Virus record (IMG/VR): IMGVR_UViG_3300004154_000351
Coordinates: 1-27,400 of that record
Reading direction: 5' to 3' (one strand)
Length of the DNA: 27,400 bases
From: a virus
The notes below the pieces were generated by a model. It did not search any database, was not told where the DNA came from, and worked only from the letters and a program-made list of their open reading frames with translations. Below, piece after piece: positions 1 through 22,797 of this stretch (position 1 is the first letter of the stretch; every line of letters starts with the position of its first letter). A program made the translations under genes and the position numbers.

Positions 1-1084
1 GGGCAGCCGCTTTTCGACCGCCAACGACGTGTACGGGGCCCTCGTGCTGGGCGCCGTGGTGCTCACGGGGTTTTTGCCGTGGCTTTTTCGCGCGCTGGCA
101 AACCTCGTCGGGGCGCAGGGGGCGTGGGGGTTTTCCTTCGTCCTGCTGGCGCTGTTGTGGGTGTTGGGCCTGACGGAATGGCCGTGGGATTGGGCGCACC
201 AGTTCAAACTGGAGGAGCGTTTCGGCTTTAATAAGAGCACGCAGGGCCTGTGGTGGGGCGACAAGCTCAAGGGCATGGCCGTGGTGCTGCTCATCGGCTG
301 GCCGATTTTGGCGCTCATCTTGTGGATCGCCTCGGCGCTGCCCTTGTGGTGGCTGTGGGCGTGGGTGGCCCTCACGCTCGTGCAACTGCTTATATTGGTG
401 CTCTATCCCCGGCTGATTCTGCCGCTGTTTAACAAACTGACTCCCTTGCCGGACGGCGAACTTAAAACGGCCCTCCTGTCGCTGGCCGACCGCACGGGCT
501 TTCGCGCCTCGACCATTCAGGTGATCGACGGCAGCCGCCGCAGCGGGCACTCGAACGCGTTTTTCACCGGCTTTGGGCGTTTTCGGCGCATCGTGCTGTT
601 TGACACGCTCATCCAGCAGTTGTCCGTGCGCGAGCTGGAGGCGGTGCTCGCCCACGAAATCGGCCACTACCGCAAGGGCCATGTGCCGCGCATGATTGCG
701 GTGTCGTCGCTGTCGAGCCTTGTCGCCTTTGCCGTCATTGCGTGGTTGGCGGGCGCGCCGTGGTTCTTGCAGGGCTTCGGCTTTGCCGCCCAAGACGCCT
801 TGCCCGCCGCCTTCGCCATTTTCCTGCTGTGCGCCGGGGTGGTCACGTACTGGTTCACCCCGATCGCCAACTTCTGGTCGCGCCGCAACGAGTACGAGGC
901 CGACGCCTTCGCCAAAGCCGCCCTGGGCAGCCCCGCCTCCCTCATCGACGGCCTGCGCAAGCTCCACACGGCGAACTTGAGCAACTTGACCCCGCACCCG
1001 CTGTACAGCTTTTTCCACTACTCGCACCCCACGCTAGCCGAGCGCACCGCCGCGCTGGAGCTGGCGCAGGACGAATGCTTCTAA
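1..1084 (+). CDS. CAAX prenyl protease 1 / Ste24-like M48 metallopeptidase, 5' truncated by window
   Basis: Integral-membrane zinc metalloprotease of peptidase family M48 (Ste24 type). The frame is open to the left edge (it reads GSRFSTAND before the GTG at 29), so the true start lies outside the window and about 360 residues are visible. The zinc motif HEIGH is at about 656-670 and is followed by YRKGH. The third ligand lies in the NEYEADAFAKAAL motif near 885-920. Hydrophobic segments occupy the N-terminal third and flank the catalytic domain, as in Ste24. The C-terminal motif NLTPHPLYSFFHYSHPTLAER is typical of the family. This is the host chromosomal gene beside the prophage. The last codons (Cys-Phe-stop) may have been supplied by the phage end, because a TG dinucleotide sits at 1076-1077. 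Confidence 0.93.
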   Translation, partial: GSRFSTANDVYGALVLGAVVLTGFLPWLFRALANLVGAQGAWGFSFVLLALLWVLGLTEWPWDWAHQFKLEERFGFNKSTQGLWWGDKLKGMAVVLLIGWPILALILWIASALPLWWLWAWVALTLVQLLILVLYPRLILPLFNKLTPLPDGELKTALLSLADRTGFRASTIQVIDGSRRSGHSNAFFTGFGRFRRIVLFDTLIQQLSVRELEAVLAHEIGHYRKGHVPRMIAVSSLSSLVAFAVIAWLAGAPWFLQGFGFAAQDALPAAFAIFLLCAGVVTYWFTPIANFWSRRNEYEADAFAKAALGSPASLIDGLRKLHTANLSNLTPHPLYSFFHYSHPTLAERTAALELAQDECF

Positions 1085-2680: not shown

Positions 2681-2878
2681 TTACTGCCCCACCTTTCCGG
2701 TGGACGGGCTGAATCCGTGCGAGGAGAGCCAGCCTTCCATCACATTGGTGATGAAGTTCGAGCGATTGCGGTTGTCCGCCTTGGCGGCCTGTTTAATGCG
2801 ATCCATCAGGTCTTTGCTCATGCTGATGGAGATTTGGGTCATGCCCGCTGCGCGGGCGGTGTTTTTGCGTGTGGTCAT
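2681..2878 (-). CDS. Ribbon-helix-helix DNA-binding protein (Arc/CopG type)
   Basis: 65 residues. A beta strand (MTQISISM, residues 13-20) is followed by helix A (SKDLMDRIKQAAKADN), a turn with NRSN, and helix B (FITNVMEGWLSSHG). This is the standard RHH layout of a dimeric DNA-binding protein. It may regulate the distal early genes or host genes. The 40-bp gap upstream is the largest in this part of the operon. It differs in sequence from the two RHH proteins of the immunity region. Confidence 0.75.
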   Translation of the reverse strand: MTTRKNTARAAGMTQISISMSKDLMDRIKQAAKADNRNRSNFITNVMEGWLSSHGFSPSTGKVGQ

Positions 2879-4038: not shown

Positions 4039-4497
4039 TTAGATTTCGGAAGTGGGAATCGGTTTGCTGTCCGGGCCGTAGCAGTCTGCCGAGATTTCCG
4101 GGAGGCACCCGCCCGTTGCGGCCGGCCCCTCCTCTTCGATGCCCAGCATTGGCAGCTGCTGGATGGCGCGGGAACGTTGCATGCCCCAAAGGAGGCTTTC
4201 TTCTTCCACAGTTACGTGTAGCTCGCCGTTAGCGGGGAACATCACGTCGGCCAGCAGAATGTCTGCGAGGACGAAGGCGTCCTTATTGTGGGCAAAGGGG
4301 TAGTCGGAAGACTGCCCTCTATTGTTGTATTTGACCGCAGGGAGTCCCTGCGCCTTGCGCGAGGCGGCAAGGGCCTCGAAGAGCGTCGCCTCGGTCACCA
4401 CATAGTGGGTCTTGGCGAAGAAATTCCCCGGTTCGGCCAGCAGCTTGCCGGCCAAAAATAGGACGTTGTTTTGAAAGGTAAAAATATGTGAGATCAT
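4039..4497 (-). CDS. Hypothetical early protein
   Basis: 152 residues, starting at the ATG 4497-4495 that overlaps the stop of the 49-aa gene (ATGA). No known domain is recognised. The N-terminal part alternates hydrophobic and polar residues (ISHIFTFQNNVLFLAGKLL) and looks beta-rich. The centre contains NNRGQSSDYPFAHNKDAFVLADILLAD and the C-terminus is acidic and Pro-rich. There is no membrane segment or signal peptide. It lies between the MuB-like ATPase and Gam and is co-transcribed with them. Confidence 0.7.
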   Translation of the reverse strand: MISHIFTFQNNVLFLAGKLLAEPGNFFAKTHYVVTEATLFEALAASRKAQGLPAVKYNNRGQSSDYPFAHNKDAFVLADILLADVMFPANGELHVTVEEESLLWGMQRSRAIQQLPMLGIEEEGPAATGGCLPEISADCYGPDSKPIPTSEI

Positions 4498-4643
4498 GAA
4501 AAAAGGGCTCCGATAAAAAGGCCGAGACCGAGGCAGAAAATGAACAGGCACGGCAGCCACAAGGGCGAATGCCTGGACGCGCTCAGCGCGTTTAAAAAGC
4601 GCGCCCACGGGCGGCGCGCGGTGCAGTAGTGGGCAATGTTCAT
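4494..4643 (-). CDS. Small single-pass membrane protein, 49 aa
   Basis: A short basic N-terminus (MNIAHYCTARRPWARFLNALSASR by position) is followed by one hydrophobic helix, LWLPCLFIFCLGLGLFIGAL, at the C-terminus. The start codon overlaps the stop of the ATPase gene (ATGA, 4643-4640). A good Shine-Dalgarno, GAGGAGG, lies inside the end of the ATPase gene. The positive-inside rule predicts the N-terminus in the cytoplasm. Function unknown. Confidence 0.6.
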   Translation of the reverse strand: MNIAHYCTARRPWARFLNALSASRHSPLWLPCLFIFCLGLGLFIGALFS

Positions 4644-5821
4644 AACACCTCCTCGGGTTTTTCGTTGGCGGCCTTGGCGGCAATCACGGCGCACAGCAAG
4701 GCGTGGTCGCGGGGCAGTCCGTTGCGATCGGCGGCGGCGGCCGCGCGGCGCAGGGTGTCGAACACTTGCTTGAGGCCATTGTCCGAGGCGTAATTAAAAA
4801 ACGAGCGCATCACGGTATGGGCATCGCCACTGCTGTTCGTTATCGCGCGCTGGTAGGTGTCCTGCGCCCCAGCAGTCGGGAACGGGAAACCGAAGTGCTT
4901 AAAAATCGCCCGCATGTCGCGGATGTGATTTTTGTCCGACAGGCGCAAAATATGAGAGCAGCCACGGCGGTAAGTCTGCTTGAGGATTTGGGCGTCCTTC
5001 CCGCCGATCATTTCCTCCAGCCCGATGTTGGTAGAGATATTGCACATCGCGCATTTGGTTTCGTCGTAGAGGGCGCGCAAGGTCTCTATCAGGCGGATTC
5101 CAGCGTTGGGCTGATACTTGGGGAGCAGCCAGTGCCATTCGTCCACGATAATTAGCATCGTGGGGTTGATGGCCGCCTTAACGCGTTCCTTCAGCCGGTG
5201 GAGGCTGTTGTCCTGCGAAATGTAGAGCATGCGGGCCAGTCGGCGGTAAAGCTCCACCTCGCTGTGGACGCCCTCCACAGTCAGATAGCCGGTGCGCTGC
5301 ATGCCGAAGCGCTCACGATACCAGAGCGCCGACTGGGTTTTGCCGACTTGCGACTCGCCGATGACGAACCCCATATTGCGCGGCTCGCCGGGCACGGTGT
5401 TGCCGTTATCGTCGCGCGCGGCCACGCGGTGCATATGCTCCCAGATGATGTCGACGGTCGGAAAGCGCACATAGCTGCTGGATCGCTGCTGGGCGTCCAT
5501 TGCCTCCTGCCGCAAGCGGCGGATAATGGCCATCATCGGGGCGGGCGGCGCGATCATCTCGCCCGTCTTGGGGTTGATATAGTTGGCGGCGAGCACGCGC
5601 GAAATCGTGGGCGCGCTCACCTCAAGCTTGCGGGCCAAATCGGCTTGCGAGTAATTTTTTTCGCACGCCCAGCCCCACAGCCAGCGCAGATCGTCCTGGT
5701 ATTCCGGGCGGTGGCGGGCAATGGCGAGTTCGACTTTATCCCCGGCAAGGTTGGTGCCGTGCCAGGCATCGACGCCCTGTTCTTCGAGGACGGCGGGTGC
5801 GGAATCAGTTTGTGCGTTCAT
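4640..5821 (-). CDS. B: MuB-like AAA+ ATPase, target-DNA activator
   Basis: 393 residues. An N-terminal helix-turn-helix (YSQADLARKLEVSAPTISR, 57-75) precedes a AAA+ domain with Walker A GESQVGKT (155-162) and Walker B LIIVDEWHW (223-231). A sensor-like STNIGLEE follows. This order matches MuB, which polymerises on DNA in ATP form, selects the target and stimulates the transposase. It is longer than Mu B (about 312 residues), mainly N-terminally and C-terminally. It lies 13 bp after the transposase gene, in the A-B order of Mu-like phages. Confidence 0.87.
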   Translation of the reverse strand: MNAQTDSAPAVLEEQGVDAWHGTNLAGDKVELAIARHRPEYQDDLRWLWGWACEKNYSQADLARKLEVSAPTISRVLAANYINPKTGEMIAPPAPMMAIIRRLRQEAMDAQQRSSSYVRFPTVDIIWEHMHRVAARDDNGNTVPGEPRNMGFVIGESQVGKTQSALWYRERFGMQRTGYLTVEGVHSEVELYRRLARMLYISQDNSLHRLKERVKAAINPTMLIIVDEWHWLLPKYQPNAGIRLIETLRALYDETKCAMCNISTNIGLEEMIGGKDAQILKQTYRRGCSHILRLSDKNHIRDMRAIFKHFGFPFPTAGAQDTYQRAITNSSGDAHTVMRSFFNYASDNGLKQVFDTLRRAAAAADRNGLPRDHALLCAVIAAKAANEKPEEVL

Positions 5822-5834
5822 AGGTTTTTTGCGG

Positions 5835-7868
5835 TTAGTTGAGGGAAAGAATGCTTTTGCCGTATCCGGCCAGCGCGGGGGCCACCGGCTCGGGGATGTC
5901 GATTACCAGCCGCTTGGGCGGGCGCGGGCGCTTGGGTTCGCCATCCTTGCGTTCGGTGAGCGAAGGCTGCTTGGTGACGATGCCAAGGGCGGCATTGCGC
6001 GCGCGGCCGTCGGCGATTTCCGCGTCGGCGCGGGCCAAGATGGGCTGCAGGGCGGCGGCTTCCTGCGCGCGGGCCGCGTGGACCGCGTGGGCGCGGCGCT
6101 GTAGGGCCAATTCGTCGGTGATGTCCACGAAGTGCTGGCGCGCCACCGTTCCCATGTAGGTGCCGTCGCGAAAGAGCGCGATGGCCGACAAATCGCCTTC
6201 CAGCACGCCGTCGTAGCTGCGGCCTTCTTCGAAGTCGGAAAGGCAGGGGTTGCCCTGTTGACGGAAAATCATCGGGTCGGCGCACAGCGCGTTATCGCGC
6301 ACCGTGATGGACCCGTTGATCACGCGCACGGTGCGCTTATCCGCGAAGTAGCCGCGCAAGAGGGGCATCTTGACGGGCTCGAATACAACGCCGTTGCACA
6401 GGCGATGAAACCGCTCCATCGGGGACTCCTTGCGTTGCTTTACCAGCGTGACGGCCAGTTCGGCGGCGGGCAGCAGATGTTGCAGCTGTGCGTAGGGCAG
6501 CCAGCGACCGTCCGGCAGCCGTCCCTCTACGATTTCTTCAAACCCCTGCATCTGGTGGTCGTGGGCATAGCGGAAAAGTTCTATCGCCGCGTAAGCGGCC
6601 GTCAGGTAATCCTTCCAAATGGGCAAGGGCGTCCACAAGGCGGCGAGATCCGTGCGCAGAATGCCCAGGGCATCGGCTTGGTCGAGGATTTGCAGCGCCT
6701 CCTTTGTCTGCGCCTCCAGCGCCTCGTGGGTTAGGTCATAGCGTGCGCCGGTCGCCCCCGGCAGATAGGCCATCGCGTTGTGGAACTTGGAGAAAAACAC
6801 CTCTACGGGCGACTTGCCGAAGGGCGACCCGCCCGCCTCCATGAATCCGTTGGGCGAAAGCTTATTGCGGTAAAACTTTGTGCGCTCCACGCGCACGCGC
6901 CCGCCGAACACCTGCAGCAGGAAGCGCTCATCGTCCGCCGTGATGGCGGCGGCGGCATTTTCGACTACGAGCGTCACCGTGTACGGCGGTAGGCCGTGGC
7001 GCTCAAACAGCTGGAGCAGCACCCCGCGCAACATATTACGCTCTACCCCTTCGCGTTTGCCGTCATCGCGCATCAGGCGCGGCTTGAAGGTTCCTGCCAG
7101 CGGCATGCCTGTGGCCCCATCAATGGCCAGCACGCCCAGCGGAAACACGTTCTGCCGATGGGGACCGTTGAGGAACAAGACCTGCTGGTCGGGCCGAAAG
7201 TCGTCGAAGTAAATCCGTTCCAGTGGCCGCAAGGCACTGCGATCGGTGCGCAGCATATCGGGCTGGCTGCCGTGCGCGGCGAGATAGCCCTGTTTCAGGG
7301 CCAGTTGGGTGGCGGCGCGCTTGGGAATATAGCGCATCAGATTCTGGTAGCTCCAGCCTTCCGGCATGTCGGATGGGCGGCACGTCAGGGCGGTAGGCAG
7401 CGCGCGTCCGCGCGCCGCATACCATTGGGAGGCGAGACCATAGCCGGGCACCGCTTTCCCCGCCAACCACTCCTTTTTGTAGAGGTGATTGACGGCGGCC
7501 TTTCCCGCAGTTTTGCGGCTCTTGAAATCCCCCCATATGCCCTGCCAGTATGGGATAAATTCCTTTGGGAGGGCCGTCTTATCATTGCGCGCGGGTGGAA
7601 ACAGCACCCGCCACGGCTCGGGATTGCCCTCGCGCTGGGCGCGCTGATACTTCAAGTAAAGTTTCAAAATGGTGTTCGTCGCCCAGCCCTTTTGCATCAA
7701 GGGACGGCGCACGGCGGCGGCGTTGCGCGCGCCGGTGCGCAAGTCTTTTGCTTCCGCGATGTCTTTGAAGGCTTCCAGCAATTCCAAGACGCGCGCCCGC
7801 TGTGCGGCGCTGCCCGTTTGGGCAAAAGCGCCGTGCTGCGGCAAGGGGACAATGTAGTTATTCGCCAT
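5835..7868 (-). CDS. A: MuA-like DDE-family transposase with DEE-type active site
   Basis: 677 residues, close to Mu A (663). Likely catalytic acids are D222 or D223 in the strand RIYFDDF, E303 in TLVVENAAAAI, and E356 in GKSPVEVFFSKFHN. The spacing between the second and third (53) is like that of MuA (56). The position normally held by the second Asp appears to be Glu. A Mu-transpos_C-like beta-barrel region follows (about 490-585), then a charged tail (590-655) like the MuA domain that contacts MuB. The enzyme would bind the phage ends, nick them and join them to target DNA. It overlaps the upstream 75-aa gene by 11 bp and is followed by the MuB-like gene. Confidence 0.88.
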   Translation of the reverse strand: MANNYIVPLPQHGAFAQTGSAAQRARVLELLEAFKDIAEAKDLRTGARNAAAVRRPLMQKGWATNTILKLYLKYQRAQREGNPEPWRVLFPPARNDKTALPKEFIPYWQGIWGDFKSRKTAGKAAVNHLYKKEWLAGKAVPGYGLASQWYAARGRALPTALTCRPSDMPEGWSYQNLMRYIPKRAATQLALKQGYLAAHGSQPDMLRTDRSALRPLERIYFDDFRPDQQVLFLNGPHRQNVFPLGVLAIDGATGMPLAGTFKPRLMRDDGKREGVERNMLRGVLLQLFERHGLPPYTVTLVVENAAAAITADDERFLLQVFGGRVRVERTKFYRNKLSPNGFMEAGGSPFGKSPVEVFFSKFHNAMAYLPGATGARYDLTHEALEAQTKEALQILDQADALGILRTDLAALWTPLPIWKDYLTAAYAAIELFRYAHDHQMQGFEEIVEGRLPDGRWLPYAQLQHLLPAAELAVTLVKQRKESPMERFHRLCNGVVFEPVKMPLLRGYFADKRTVRVINGSITVRDNALCADPMIFRQQGNPCLSDFEEGRSYDGVLEGDLSAIALFRDGTYMGTVARQHFVDITDELALQRRAHAVHAARAQEAAALQPILARADAEIADGRARNAALGIVTKQPSLTERKDGEPKRPRPPKRLVIDIPEPVAPALAGYGKSILSLN

Positions 7869-11210: not shown

Positions 11211-11251
11211 AGGATTGTGCGGTTTTGGGTTGTGGGGAAAATGGATGTCGG

Positions 11252-11764
11252 TTAGCGTTGGGGCACATTACCCCCATGGACTGGATTACGATTATCGTTG
11301 CGCTCGTTACCGGCACGCTCGCCGCAGTTGTGACCCCTTGGTCCGCCTTCGGCGTCGCGCTGGTCAATAACCGACTGCGAACACGCCAACGGGACGCACA
11401 AATAAAAGCGGCCATTGATTCCTTGAGCCCCAAGGCGATTGAGTTCCTCCAGCGTTTCCTTACCGAGGGAAACCCCATTCATTTTATGCGCATCCCCGCT
11501 GCCGAGTGGGGCAAGTACATCCAGCCACTGGCAAAAGCAAAAGTGCTGATCTTGCCGCGATACGAGAGTGATGAGGCTTTTGTGGGTGTAGCAATGCACC
11601 CGGTCGCAATCGCGTACATGAGGGCCAAACACCCAGTACCAGAACCAGAAGCCCCCGAAGCCAAATAAGAAGGCCAGGGTGCAGGAGATCGCGTAGTGGA
11701 TGGCGTCCCATTTCTCAAAACGGGCTTGGCGAAGACCAGTGTAGGGTTTGGGAAAGGTGGGCAT
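11252..11764 (-). CDS. Doubtful small membrane ORF, antisense to the SieB-like gene
   Basis: The ATG at 11764-11762 lies four bases after the stop of the 74-aa early gene, the normal spacing of this operon. It opens MPTFPKPYTGLRQARFEKWD, then a hydrophobic stretch. Only the first 32 codons lie outside the plus-strand gene. The Trp/Phe-rich part is the complement of that gene's Pro/Glu-rich tail, and the rest reads like antisense noise. It may be a truncated early gene whose 3' part was replaced by the plus-strand insert, or no gene at all. Confidence 0.25.
   Translation of the reverse strand: MPTFPKPYTGLRQARFEKWDAIHYAISCTLAFLFGFGGFWFWYWVFGPHVRDCDRVHCYTHKSLITLVSRQDQHFCFCQWLDVLAPLGSGDAHKMNGVSLGKETLEELNRLGAQGINGRFYLCVPLACSQSVIDQRDAEGGPRGHNCGERAGNERNDNRNPVHGGNVPQR
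11276..11668 (+). CDS. Membrane-anchored protein, possibly SieB-like superinfection exclusion; antisense cargo gene
   Basis: 130 residues from the ATG at 11276; the frame could start at a TTG at 11225, but that extension lacks support. A hydrophobic N-terminal segment (ITIIVALVTGTLAAVVTPW, about 3-21) precedes a cytoplasmic-looking domain: SLSPKAIEFLQRFLTEGN, then IHFMRIPAAEWGKYIQPLAKAKVLIL and VAMHPVAIAYM. The layout recalls superinfection-exclusion SieB-type proteins (N-terminal membrane helix plus a small winged-helix-like domain with a final Y-[AM] helix). The similarity is from pattern memory only. It is the only plus-strand gene inside the leftward early operon, as expected for a lysogenically expressed cargo (moron) gene. 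No clear promoter was found upstream. Confidence 0.65.
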   Translation: MDWITIIVALVTGTLAAVVTPWSAFGVALVNNRLRTRQRDAQIKAAIDSLSPKAIEFLQRFLTEGNPIHFMRIPAAEWGKYIQPLAKAKVLILPRYESDEAFVGVAMHPVAIAYMRAKHPVPEPEAPEAK

Positions 11765-12204: not shown

Positions 12205-12393
12205 TTAATTGGCGAGGGCTTGCAATTTTACGCTTAGTTTTTTTTCTGAAATGACTCGCCCCATGCGGTCATATATGGCCTGCCGAATGAATTTGCTCTT
12301 GTCGCGTTCGTCCAGCAGAGCGATGCGTTCAAGTTCGGCAAAGTCTTCAGCGGGGAATTTGAAATTTATAAGTTTTGTGGGTTTCCGCTTCAT
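12205..12393 (-). CDS. Ribbon-helix-helix regulator heading the early operon (Cro/Ner-like position)
   Basis: 62 residues. Beta strand KLINFKFP (7-14), helix AEDFAELERIALLDE, then KSKFIRQAIYDRM form a typical Arc/CopG fold. It is divergent from a second RHH gene at 12483, with 89 bp between the starts. The two share the KSKFIRQAIYDRM / RSTFIREAIYEKM helix, so they are likely paralogues. By position it would be the early, Cro- or Ner-like partner, transcribed leftward from the promoter with TTGACA at 12440-12435. Confidence 0.8.
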   Translation of the reverse strand: MKRKPTKLINFKFPAEDFAELERIALLDERDKSKFIRQAIYDRMGRVISEKKLSVKLQALAN

Positions 12394-12397
12394 GTTT

Positions 12398-12430
12398 AAT
12401 CTTTATTCAATCTTTACTAAATCTTTATCG
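12398..12430. repeat. Three tandem 11-bp operator-like repeats
   Basis: AATCTTTATTC (12398-12408), AATCTTTACTA (12409-12419) and AATCTTTATCG (12420-12430) are exactly contiguous with an 11-bp period. AATCTTTA is invariant. One helical turn per unit lets RHH dimers bind side by side on one face of the DNA. The array covers the spacer, -10 and start region of the leftward promoter, so binding would repress the early operon. A looser inverted match (CAAAGATG) lies at 12452-12459 inside the rightward promoter. Confidence 0.7.
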
Positions 12431-12440
12431 AGTATGTCAA
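12408..12440 (-). promoter_or_regulatory. Leftward early promoter with exact TTGACA -35
   Basis: An exact TTGACA lies at 12440-12435 on the minus strand. The -10 is less clear: at 16-18 bp spacing it falls on AGTAAA/TAAAGA within the repeat array. The start of transcription would lie 10-25 bases before the ATG of the RHH gene at 12393. It would drive the whole leftward early operon. Confidence 0.55.
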
Positions 12441-12448
12441 TTTATTTT

Positions 12449-12483
12449 TTGCAAAGATGCGGAAAAAAAATAATATGCCTCTA
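12449..12483 (+). promoter_or_regulatory. Rightward repressor promoter, probably giving a leaderless mRNA
   Basis: TTGCAA at 12449-12454, a 16-bp spacer and TAATAT at 12471-12476 form a fair sigma-70 type promoter. The predicted +1 falls on or next to the A of the ATG at 12483. No Shine-Dalgarno sequence precedes this ATG. The situation is like lambda cI made from PRM, which is also leaderless. Confidence 0.5.
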
Positions 12484-12800
12484 TGGAGAAGCCAAAAAAA
12501 CGAGCGCAACGGTTAATCAACCTTGTCGTCGATCCTCAATTCTTGGAGGCGATAGACAAGGTCTCACGGATGGCAGGTTATGCAGACCGGAGCACTTTCA
12601 TCCGCGAGGCCATTTACGAAAAAATGGCGGAAAAGGGAGCTAAAATTTCGCGCGAAATTTCATTGCCGCCCTCACGTTCCGGCGTCGGTGGAAAGCCATC
12701 GCACAAAAGGAAGTATACGATAAACGCTCCAGGAGGTAGTGTACGGATCGTGGAAGATTATTCAAAAAAGTCGTTTTTAAAATCTGACGCTCGAAATTAA
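12483..12800 (+). CDS. Ribbon-helix-helix protein, probable prophage repressor
   Basis: 105 residues. The RHH core is RLINLVVDPQFLEAIDKVSR, then a turn with YADRS and the helix TFIREAIYEKMAEK (about 10-51). A C-terminal extension of about 50 residues, rich in Ser/Lys, follows (KRKYTINAPGGSVRIVEDY) and has no known domain. It is divergent from the early-operon RHH gene and shares its recognition helix pattern. Position, divergence and operator array argue that it is the lysogeny repressor, although no serine-protease or CI-type domain is present. It heads an operon running to the terminators at 13849. Confidence 0.7.
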   Translation: MEKPKKRAQRLINLVVDPQFLEAIDKVSRMAGYADRSTFIREAIYEKMAEKGAKISREISLPPSRSGVGGKPSHKRKYTINAPGGSVRIVEDYSKKSFLKSDARN

Positions 12801-12964: not shown

Positions 12965-13459
12965 ATGAAAGACTACGATAAGGATCCGGCGTTTCAGGCT
13001 TTCTTGCAAAAAGACCAGGGAGACGTATCGCTGCAGGATGAAAAAGAAGATTCCGAAACTAAGGCGTTGAAGGTCAAACAAGCGCGCGCAGCATGGAGTT
13101 TATTTTTTCTGGTATTCCTCGCGCTGGCTTTTGTGTTGCTAATCAGCTCAACGAACCCGGCAGCTGAAGCACAGTTCAAAACCCATGTCGTTGAGGAGAC
13201 AAAAAAAATAATTGAGGAGTATTTGCGCGCCCCCGCCTCTGCTAAATATCCAGAGCAGGCTGATGTCTACAAAACAAAAGACGGCTTATGGGAATATGCA
13301 AGTTACGTTGATTCCCAAAATGCTTTCGGTGCCATGTTGCGCACAAGATTTTCGGCGATTTACGATAAAACGACATATGGGACCCCACATCTGGTTGAGT
13401 TAAACCTAGGTGGACGTAGTACGGGGAGCGTATCGGATTATTTGCGCGAGCGAAAGTAA
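12965..13459 (+). CDS. Membrane-anchored protein of the immunity operon
   Basis: 164 residues from the ATG at 12965; an upstream in-frame Met overlaps the 49-aa ORF. The cytoplasmic N-terminus MKDYDKDPAFQAFLQ is followed by an acidic stretch. One membrane helix (AAWSLFFLVFLALAFVLLI, 42-60) leads into an outside domain (65-164): HVVEETKKIIEEYLRAPASAKY, then WEYASYVDSQNAFGAMLRTRF. That domain matches a recurring small extracytoplasmic family (LxxPxSAKFP ... YVDAQNxFGAxxR). The role is unknown. Expression with the repressor suggests superinfection exclusion or another lysogenic-conversion function. Confidence 0.7.
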   Translation: MKDYDKDPAFQAFLQKDQGDVSLQDEKEDSETKALKVKQARAAWSLFFLVFLALAFVLLISSTNPAAEAQFKTHVVEETKKIIEEYLRAPASAKYPEQADVYKTKDGLWEYASYVDSQNAFGAMLRTRFSAIYDKTTYGTPHLVELNLGGRSTGSVSDYLRERK

Positions 13460-13484
13460 TTGATTTTTCGGACAACCTACAGCC

Positions 13485-13841
13485 ATGAAAAATTACGATA
13501 ATGACCCTAAATTCCAAGCGTTCCTCCAGCAAGGGAAGCCACAAATAGAAACAGAATCTCCTGCAGAAATCGTGCCAGAGGAGGTTTCACCCGAAGAGGT
13601 AAAGAATGCTGCGTTTTCAAAAGACGGTGTGTTTTTTGCGAAGTGTGCAATTACTGGGATTATCTTTGCCGGGGGAAATCTAGTTTTAACCTTTGGGATG
13701 CTGGGCGGCGCGGTTAATTTAATAAAACCGCAGGATCTTCCCATGCAATTTTATGGGTGTTACTTCATGGGCGGCATTTTCACTTTTATTCTCTTGGGGG
13801 CATTCGCCCAGATTTGTAAAAAACACTGGATGTCCAATTAG
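13485..13841 (+). CDS. Two-helix membrane protein of the immunity operon
   Basis: 118 residues. The N-terminus MKNYDNDPKFQAFLQ is nearly identical to that of the preceding gene, although the rest differs. An acidic Pro/Glu linker (20-40) precedes two or three membrane helices (about 50-80 and 87-109). It ends KKHWMSN, and the first rho-independent terminator follows within 10 bp. The shared N-terminal motif implies a common partner or targeting role. No family recognised. Confidence 0.7.
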   Translation: MKNYDNDPKFQAFLQQGKPQIETESPAEIVPEEVSPEEVKNAAFSKDGVFFAKCAITGIIFAGGNLVLTFGMLGGAVNLIKPQDLPMQFYGCYFMGGIFTFILLGAFAQICKKHWMSN

Positions 13842-13848
13842 ACCCCAA

Positions 13849-13876
13849 CCCCGGCTCTTGCGAGTCGGGGTTTTTT
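13849..13876 (+). terminator. Rho-independent terminator 1 of the immunity operon
   Basis: Stem CCCCGGCTC (13849-13857) / GAGTCGGGG (13862-13870) has nine pairs including one G-U, a TTGC loop and a TTTTTT tail. It begins seven bases after the stop of the second membrane gene. Confidence 0.85.
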
Positions 13877-13890
13877 GTGCCGCTGGGCCT

Positions 13891-13922
13891 AGCCCCCAGT
13901 CCGTAAGGACTGGGGGCTTTTT
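13891..13922 (+). terminator. Rho-independent terminator 2
   Basis: A perfect 12-bp stem AGCCCCCAGTCC (13891-13902) / GGACTGGGGGCT (13907-13918), with a GTAA loop, is followed by T residues. Read leftward it also has AAAG... flanks rather than a T tail, so it acts rightward. Together with terminator 1 it isolates the lysogenic operon from the late genes. Confidence 0.8.
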
Positions 13923-21572: not shown

Positions 21573-22013
21573 ATGGCCTGGATACCCATCACGGAAAATA
21601 ATCTCCTCACCGCCATGAGCGGCGATGAGCTTGCTGGCGTGCGCGCGGCCGCGCTGGCCAACGCCCAAGAGGATCCCGTCGCGCCCTCTATTGCGGCGGT
21701 CATCGGGCAGGTGCGCGGCTATGTGGGCCGCAAGCACACGCTGGGCGCCGGCGCGACCATTCCTGAAAAGCTCTTGGCCACGGCCCTTGATTTGATTGTC
21801 CCGCGCATGCTCAACCGCGTCAATTTGGACATTTCTTCGGGGCGCGTTACGGCGGCGGAGGACGCGAAAAAGACCTTGGATGATGTCGCATCCGGCAGGT
21901 TCAACGTCGAGGAGCCCGAAACCGCGACGCCGGAAGTATCCGCTGGCGTGATCGGCCCGGCCATTTCCGCGCCCAAGCGGCGCTTCACGCGAAAGGACCA
22001 AGATGGAATCTAA
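21573..22013 (+). CDS. Head-tail connector-like protein (DUF1320/Mu gp36-like)
   Basis: 146 residues from the ATG at 21573. It begins MAWIPITENNLLTAMSGDEL, then has a helical bundle (AAVIGQVRGYVGRKHTLGAG, then IPEKLLATALDLIVPRMLNR) and a DISSGRVTAAEDAKKTLDDVASG segment. This pattern is that of DUF1320 connectors in Mu-like phages, which sit between portal and tail. It overlaps the methylase gene by 11 bp. Confidence 0.7.
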   Translation: MAWIPITENNLLTAMSGDELAGVRAAALANAQEDPVAPSIAAVIGQVRGYVGRKHTLGAGATIPEKLLATALDLIVPRMLNRVNLDISSGRVTAAEDAKKTLDDVASGRFNVEEPETATPEVSAGVIGPAISAPKRRFTRKDQDGI

Positions 22014-22797
22014 GACCATAAAAACGGCGTTTCCTTATCCCGGCTGCAAGCGCCGGTTGCTCTCGGACATTTTACCGCATGTCCCGGCGCATCGCATCTA
22101 TGTGGAGGTGTTCGCCGGCAGCGCCGCGCTGCTCTTGGCGAAAGAGCCAAGCGCGCATGAGGTCATCAACGACATCAACGGGGACCTCGTGGCTTTCTTT
22201 CGCTATGTAAAATTTCACGCGCCCGCGCTGATGGCGGAACTGGAGGGATGGCCGAACGCCCGCGAAAACTTCTTATCCATAAAGGCGTCGACACCTCTGA
22301 CCGAACTTCAGCGCGCGGCGCGCTGGTATTTTCTGCAAACCTGCAGCTTTGGCGGCAAGGGGGAAGCCTTTGGCCGCGCGCGCGACCGTTACCACGGCTT
22401 TGACGCCGCACGCCATGGGGCGCTGGTCGCCGCCCTTTCCGCGCGTTTGCGCAAGGTGGTCGTGGAAAATCAGGACTGGGAAGAAATCGTGTCCTTTTAT
22501 GACACGCCCGACACCTTCTTCTTTTTTGACCCGCCCTATCTGGGTTGTTCCAAGACGGCTTACAACGCCTGGGACGCACAGACGATGTGGCGGCTCGCCG
22601 GGGCGGTGCGACGGCTCCAGGGCAAATACCTGCTCACCGTCAATGACTCCGCCCAGACGCGGGAAATTTTCGCCGGCATTCCCTGCCGCGAAATGAGCAT
22701 CCGCTATTCCCTTGCCTCCAACCGCTCCGGAAAAGTTTCGGGCGAACTGCTCATCGGAAACTGCCTGACGGCCGCCGCCGGCCGCCGGGCCGCTTAA
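22003..22797 (+). CDS. DNA adenine N6-methyltransferase (Dam/D12 class)
   Basis: 264 residues. FPYPGCKRR (10-18) is the PGxK-like start of D12 methylases, EVFAGSAAL (35-43) the AdoMet-binding motif, INDING the acidic turn, and DPPY (176-179) the catalytic motif. The order is that of the Dam group, whose usual target is GATC; specificity here is not known. It sits in the head operon rather than the early region. It may methylate phage DNA before packaging, to resist host restriction. Confidence 0.88.
   Translation: MESKTIKTAFPYPGCKRRLLSDILPHVPAHRIYVEVFAGSAALLLAKEPSAHEVINDINGDLVAFFRYVKFHAPALMAELEGWPNARENFLSIKASTPLTELQRAARWYFLQTCSFGGKGEAFGRARDRYHGFDAARHGALVAALSARLRKVVVENQDWEEIVSFYDTPDTFFFFDPPYLGCSKTAYNAWDAQTMWRLAGAVRRLQGKYLLTVNDSAQTREIFAGIPCREMSIRYSLASNRSGKVSGELLIGNCLTAAAGRRAA

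Follow-up and report, generated by a model that had tools for sequence, protein, structure and literature searches.

The intergenic region between two divergent RHH genes of a Mu-like transposable phage is, in our judgement, rather likely to hold a c/Ner-type lysogeny switch, in which two RHH proteins would act on phased putative operators and transposition would come under direct control. Lysogeny switches are textbook examples of competition between HTH repressors, and if the reading is true, the lysogeny circuit in the c/ner slot has been built anew with a different DNA-binding fold. The open-access literature that was searched yielded no account of an RHH pair in a transposable phage. The anatomy of the region, its conservation across a family of phages, the phasing of the repeats, the gene order and the matched contact residues all find support at the sequence level.

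The divergent gene pair and its putative operator array

The window (the whole stretch of DNA that was analysed, 27,400 nucleotides or 27.4 kb, from an IMG/VR record) represents a Mu-like phage, with leftward genes for a GemA-like protein, Gam, a MuB-like ATPase and a transposase, and rightward genes for holin, terminases, Mu portal, protease and major head; the phage's right end is not included in it. The Mu-like markers comprise MuB (phrog_296, 2.5e-21), Gam (1.7e-16) and Portal_Mu (3e-41), as well as GemA at an E-value of 1.2e-3, which is under the Pfam cut-off. The transposase (5835-7868, minus strand) had no Pfam or PHROGs match at E<=1 and was identified solely through relatives, being homologous to the transposases of the related phages L134, L099 and L120, of which those of L134 and L099 match phrog_310. 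Searches of viral contigs with the transposase and MuB as single queries yielded no relatives, and neither did a scan of phage genomes with the transposase. The features of the switch and its surroundings are the following:

4640-7868, minus strand: transposition genes, namely a MuB-like ATPase (4640-5821) and the transposase (5835-7868), on the strand of the m-type gene and downstream of it
12205-12393, minus strand: short (m-type) RHH protein of 62 aa, heading the leftward genes including the transposition genes; a Ner/Arc-like role is proposed
12398-12405, plus strand: candidate operator repeat 1, AATCTTTA, at an 11-bp step with repeats 2 and 3
12409-12416, plus strand: candidate operator repeat 2, AATCTTTA, in which the leftward promoter has its probable -10 (TAAAGA, 12416 to 12411)
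12420-12427, plus strand: candidate operator repeat 3, AATCTTTA, within the -35/-10 spacer of the leftward promoter
12435-12440, minus strand: -35 of the leftward early promoter (TTGACA read leftward); a TTGAC-like -35 recurs there in most relatives
12449-12476, plus strand: possible rightward promoter of the p-type gene, TTGCAA-16-TAATAT (P 0.22 against shuffles, only suggestive)
12483-12800, plus strand: long (p-type) RHH protein of 105 aa, divergent from the m-type gene, with a low-confidence tail in the model; a lysogeny repressor role is proposed
12965-13459, plus strand: membrane protein (MKDYDKDPAFQ...), following the p-type gene and probably in its operon; a relative in the related phage L267 adjoins the p-type gene there
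13485-13841, plus strand: second protein with a shared N-terminal motif (MKNYDNDPKFQ...), the last gene ahead of the terminators
13847-13918, plus strand: two consecutive strong intrinsic terminators, closing the p-type operon ahead of the lysis and late genes

Both proteins flanking the array have the RHH fold, as found with family profiles, AlphaFold2 models, Foldseek and a profile search of PDB sequences. Taken singly, the window proteins score 16.2 bits (62 aa) and 18.4 bits (105 aa) against Pfam RHH_1, below the threshold of 20.5, and at E<=0.05 the profile is matched by 16 of the 21 m-type and 11 of the 17 p-type family members. The AlphaFold2 models place helices at residues 15-27 and 32-61 of the m-type protein and at residues 18-30 and 36-50 of the p-type protein; these are models of monomers, and the RHH beta strand forms only in the dimer. 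With Foldseek, Arc, PutA and CopASO align with the m-type model to within about 1 A across roughly 45 residues, and the matches for the window pair also include NikR; superposed on Arc, the m-type model deviates by about 1 A rmsd over 40-42 residues. The profile search of PDB sequences returned VapB26, NikA and CopG-type matches, together with NikR at 5e-6. The two proteins are distant kin (phmmer E about 0.006), with a KLIN/RLIN strand in both, and the claim of the preliminary description that the divergent genes encode related RHH proteins is thereby confirmed. Further, the window p-type protein, as well as the L166 p-type and the L273 m-type proteins from related phages, had no significant tblastn match in a collection of 50,697 phage genomes that includes P22, the best E-values being 0.5-0.8, to Sulfolobus viruses, so that the module may concern a phage space without a cultured model. 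The matches of the window proteins to Arc are matches of fold.

Between the two genes, the three copies of AATCTTTA follow each other at an exact 11-bp step, exactly at the positions given previously. When the 89-bp intergenic sequence was shuffled 20,000 times with its dinucleotides kept, no shuffle contained an 8-mer in three copies equally spaced by 9-12 bp, and one did at any equal step of 8-40 bp, so that the triplet is beyond chance. There is no copy of the word elsewhere in the window, where 0.4 would be expected. Across 2.9 million viral contigs, the exact triplet had three matches, on AT-rich contigs that are unrelated and lack RHH genes; the word is peculiar to the window phage, and the triplet alone is non-diagnostic across so huge a collection.

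The leftward promoter consists of TTGACA (12440 to 12435), an 18-bp spacer and the -10 TAAAGA inside repeat 2, and the array spans the spacer, the probable -10 and the stretch to the start codon at 12393. The repeats had previously been said to cover this promoter together with its TTGACA, which holds for the parts just named and not for TTGACA itself, located just right of the array. When scored alone against shuffles, the leftward promoter of the window gives P 0.27, and the assignment of its -10 is weak. At the right-hand promoter there is a single weak inverted half-site, AAAGAT (12453-12458), just past the -35.

Conservation and specificity in related phages

Loci for comparison were gathered by TerL searches, by a search with the p-type protein and by a search of 388 genomes from the phylum of a Verrucomicrobia genome, and they include 20 distinct divergent RHH pairs in related Mu-like phages, the window counted. 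Where hosts are named, those of the pair-bearing phages are mostly Verrucomicrobiota. The TerL search did find relatives, most of the loci reached in this way being without a visible pair and many of them being fragments without the early region. The search of Verrucomicrobiota genomes also gave NikR-like RHH genes, which were dropped, as they do not form divergent pairs. In the relatives, the m-type proteins measure 53-68 aa and the p-type proteins 73-185 aa, the latter usually being the longer of the two. One locus, L200, has an m-type RHH gene (4157-4336, minus strand) without a p-type partner, and the divergent gene there appears zinc-ribbon-like.

The m-type gene lies upstream of the transposase gene and on the same strand in all 14 phages in which a transposase was found, namely the window, L099, L120, L134, L166 and nine further records. 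In L166, the leftward p-type gene is followed across the intergenic region by the rightward m-type gene, the transposase (phrog_310, 3e-16) and MuB (phrog_296, 4e-13). Since L166 has the gene order of Mu and the window has the layout of Fc02, the p-type gene is, as far as position tells, at the place of Mu c and the m-type gene at the place of ner.

Direct repeats at a lag of 10/11 bp exceed dinucleotide shuffles over the 20 intergenic regions (Fisher P = 7e-10), with 11 of the 20 single regions below 0.05, and lags of 7/8 and 13/14 bp show no excess (P = 0.99). Inverted repeats in general showed no significant excess when tested over the 20 regions (P 0.33), and we claim phased direct repeats, plus individual inverted copies in L003, L009, L164 and L273 only. 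The operator words differ by phage, with CAATGTAGC in L003, TGAGTTTAA in L009, ACTSAGTCT in L099, AATTCAATT in L120, ATGTCGCGAC in L275 and GGTGTATAG in both L164 and L273. A search for AATCTTTA arrays in related prophages had been suggested as a check, and what is conserved among the related phages is the 10/11-bp phasing and not the word. As in the window, the phased repeats of the relatives overlie the early promoter, and leftward promoter scores over the 20 regions are higher than those of shuffles (Fisher P = 2.2e-6). In three phages the -10 elements of both divergent promoters are inside operator copies, the promoters being TTGACA-16-TACATT on both sides in L003, TTGACG/TTGAAA-16-TAAACT in L009 and TTGACT/TTGCAA-17-TATACA in L164.

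The positions of the strand equivalent to Arc residues 9, 11 and 13, in an alignment set by hand from the Arc register, are more alike between the two proteins of a phage than under permutation of the pairs (BLOSUM sum 75 vs -16.5 +- 16.9; 0 of 20,000 permutations). Without four outlying pairs the result is P = 0.00035, and for position 11 alone it is P = 0.00055. When all columns of the domain are scanned, position 11 gives the strongest signal within the strand, with columns 20, 39 and 40 about equal and significant, a signal that probably reflects shared ancestry; three non-contact strand positions are jointly significant as well (P = 0.002). Because of these columns and non-contact positions, part of the contact-residue effect may be due to common descent, which the permutation tests leave in. 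The half-sites GGTGT/ACACC are present in all seven phages with an m-type W13 and non-G11 and in one of the 13 others (Fisher P = 1e-4, for a grouping that was noticed before being tested). The half-sites thus appear to track the contact residues of the RHH proteins, and phages of this kind could offer a natural series for studying an RHH recognition code, for example through W13 with non-G11 tracking GGTGT half-sites.

The proposed circuit and competing explanations

We propose that the intergenic region at 12393-12483 serves this Mu-like transposable phage as its lysis-lysogeny switch and is operated by two RHH proteins. The p-type protein (12483-12800) would be the lysogeny repressor, with dimers spaced by one helical turn along the AATCTTTA array, where they would cover the leftward -10 and start region and keep the transposition operon silent. 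The m-type protein (12205-12393), which heads the transposition operon, would be the Ner/Arc-like lytic partner, reading the same half-sites, limiting its own operon and shutting off the rightward lysogeny promoter. With an own operator word in each phage and the contact residues of both proteins matched, the module would define immunity groups. A non-CI switch of RHH proteins in a transposable phage had been put forward in the preliminary description, and comparison supports this core idea well, through the 20 pairs, the c/ner position, the phasing kept while operator words diversify, the contact residues shared within a phage and the lack of a CI-like rival in the records searched; DNA binding, repression, the direction of regulation, competition between the p-type and m-type proteins and immunity are what we infer from these features. 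A common operator for the two proteins is not guaranteed, as the case of P22 shows: the operators of Arc and Mnt are annotated as distinct even though the two strands have residues in common. In a broader version, repressor and lytic antagonist would both be RHH proteins on the same phased half-sites, with protein and operator specificity co-evolving into many immunity groups, and these modules would form a distinct class of bacterial switch found mainly in Mu-like phages of Verrucomicrobiota; we regard the chances of this as evenly balanced.

Mu c and Ner are HTH-type proteins. The Mu c/ner and the Fc02/B3-type repc/ner regions resemble the window module in having a divergent pair with the ner-position gene first in the early transposition operon, and they differ in that the partners there are HTH-type whereas both are RHH here. 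The repc/ner region of Fc02 has the same layout as the window, and according to RNA-seq, repc is expressed in the lysogen while ner is first in the leftward lytic operon (PMC9936078); RepC of Fc02 was modelled as a CI-like HTH protein (PMC9936078).

The system that appears nearest in kind is Arc/Mnt of P22, though in the window module it is transposition that would be controlled directly. In P22 immI, short Arc (53 aa) and long Mnt (83 aa) RHH genes diverge across operators and both promoters, the short gene heading the lytic transcript and the long one being annotated for lysogeny maintenance (PMC2629481). The strands of Arc and Mnt share F10/N11/R13, and window-type pairs likewise share contact residues within a phage; unlike in P22, these residues vary between phages and match within each. 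Further, immI controls the antirepressor ant, with primary immunity located elsewhere, whereas the short gene here lies upstream of transposition genes, and Arc and Mnt have distinct annotated operators, whereas here a single word is repeated at a 10/11-bp step. Another RHH lysogeny regulator, F55 of the archaeal virus SSV1, binds tandem repeats over early promoters (PMC5569661). The likeness consists of an RHH protein on tandem repeats with a role in lysogeny maintenance, binding being presumed in our case, and it is one of fold only, as SSV1 is an archaeal virus with another genome type and no divergent RHH partner of F55 has been described. The circuit had been called unusual, which is apt for the filling of the c/ner slot by RHH proteins and less so in view of the precedents P22 Arc/Mnt and SSV1 F55.

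The P22 system also suggests the alternative that survives best, though we consider it unlikely, in which the RHH pair would have a secondary part like that of immI, controlling an accessory or antirepressor function or tuning the early operon, and primary immunity would be exerted by another repressor. Arc/Mnt, the best-known divergent RHH pair, has exactly such a secondary role (PMC2629481), the window is cut short on the right, and its early operon holds a conserved third DNA-binding gene, HTH10183, with relatives in L003, L200 and L272. Against this, no Peptidase_S24 domain was present in 12 pair-bearing records (the window included), several of which are 36-43 kb in length, and no small CI-like HTH_3 gene was present in the same 12 records, some of them incomplete, in a search restricted to these families. 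The HTH_3 matches that did occur were to the MuB of the window and to frames of 324-764 aa in three other records, which are MuB- or transposase-sized. Another repressor gene controlling immunity had been named earlier as what would refute the switch, and none of these two kinds came to light. In addition, the pair in L166 occupies the c/ner position and is followed at once by transposase and MuB, without any gene resembling an antirepressor in the interval; as for ant-like control, the gene after the m-type gene is the transposase in L166, and the early operon of the window holds transposition genes.

It is improbable that the repeats serve chiefly to enhance transposition or to bind the transposase, in the manner of the internal activation sequence of Mu, with the RHH genes as incidental autoregulators. 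The array is upstream of the transposition operon, and the operator region of Mu doubles as a transposition enhancer, but operator words and RHH contact residues change together (GGTGT with W13/non-G11), and the centre of the repeats is at the early promoter, beside the RHH genes. We deem it very improbable that the RHH genes play no part in lysogeny and encode orphan repressors of an antitoxin-like or simply autoregulatory sort. Many antitoxins do contain RHH domains, and antitoxin domains (CopASO, AtaR) are among the nearest structural matches, but in L166 the m-type gene is followed by a transposase and not by a toxin, and the divergence of two RHH genes heading the transposition operon is kept in about 20 divergent phages. 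A partition centromere, with a ParR-like RHH protein on parC-like 11-bp iterons, is hardly credible: parC of plasmid R1 does have 11-bp direct repeats beside a promoter, bound by dimers of the RHH protein ParR, and the window array likewise has an 11-bp step, but ParR/parC is a segregation system with an actin-like partner and no ParM-like partner was recognised beside the pair, most arrays have just two or three copies, and a phage that transposes and resides in the chromosome has no need of a partition site. Generic antitoxin and centromere readings were rejected for want of recognised partners.

Neighbouring genes

Terminators closing the p-type operon stand out in the window and are not clear in most relatives. 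The two successive genes ahead of them (12965-13841) share the N-terminal motif MK[DN]YD[KN]DP[AK]FQAFLQ, and in many relatives the ORFs following the p-type gene resemble membrane proteins or lipoproteins; such ORFs are candidates for superinfection exclusion or conversion genes. A DNA adenine methylase-like gene, recognised by sequence reading, is located between the head and tail genes of the window (22003-22797, plus strand), and its relatives in L274 and L275 (1e-57 and 4e-54) are about 1-3 kb downstream of the p-type gene. The otherwise leftward early block contains a rightward ORF with a hydrophobic N-terminus (11225-11668, plus strand), and a third RHH protein, of 65 aa (2681-2878, minus strand), which passes Pfam RHH_1, is encoded at the far end of this block. 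To the left of the prophage, an M48-type membrane peptidase gene (29-1084, plus strand; likewise by sequence reading) probably belongs to the host flank, and the left end of the phage would lie somewhere between about 1084 and 1375.
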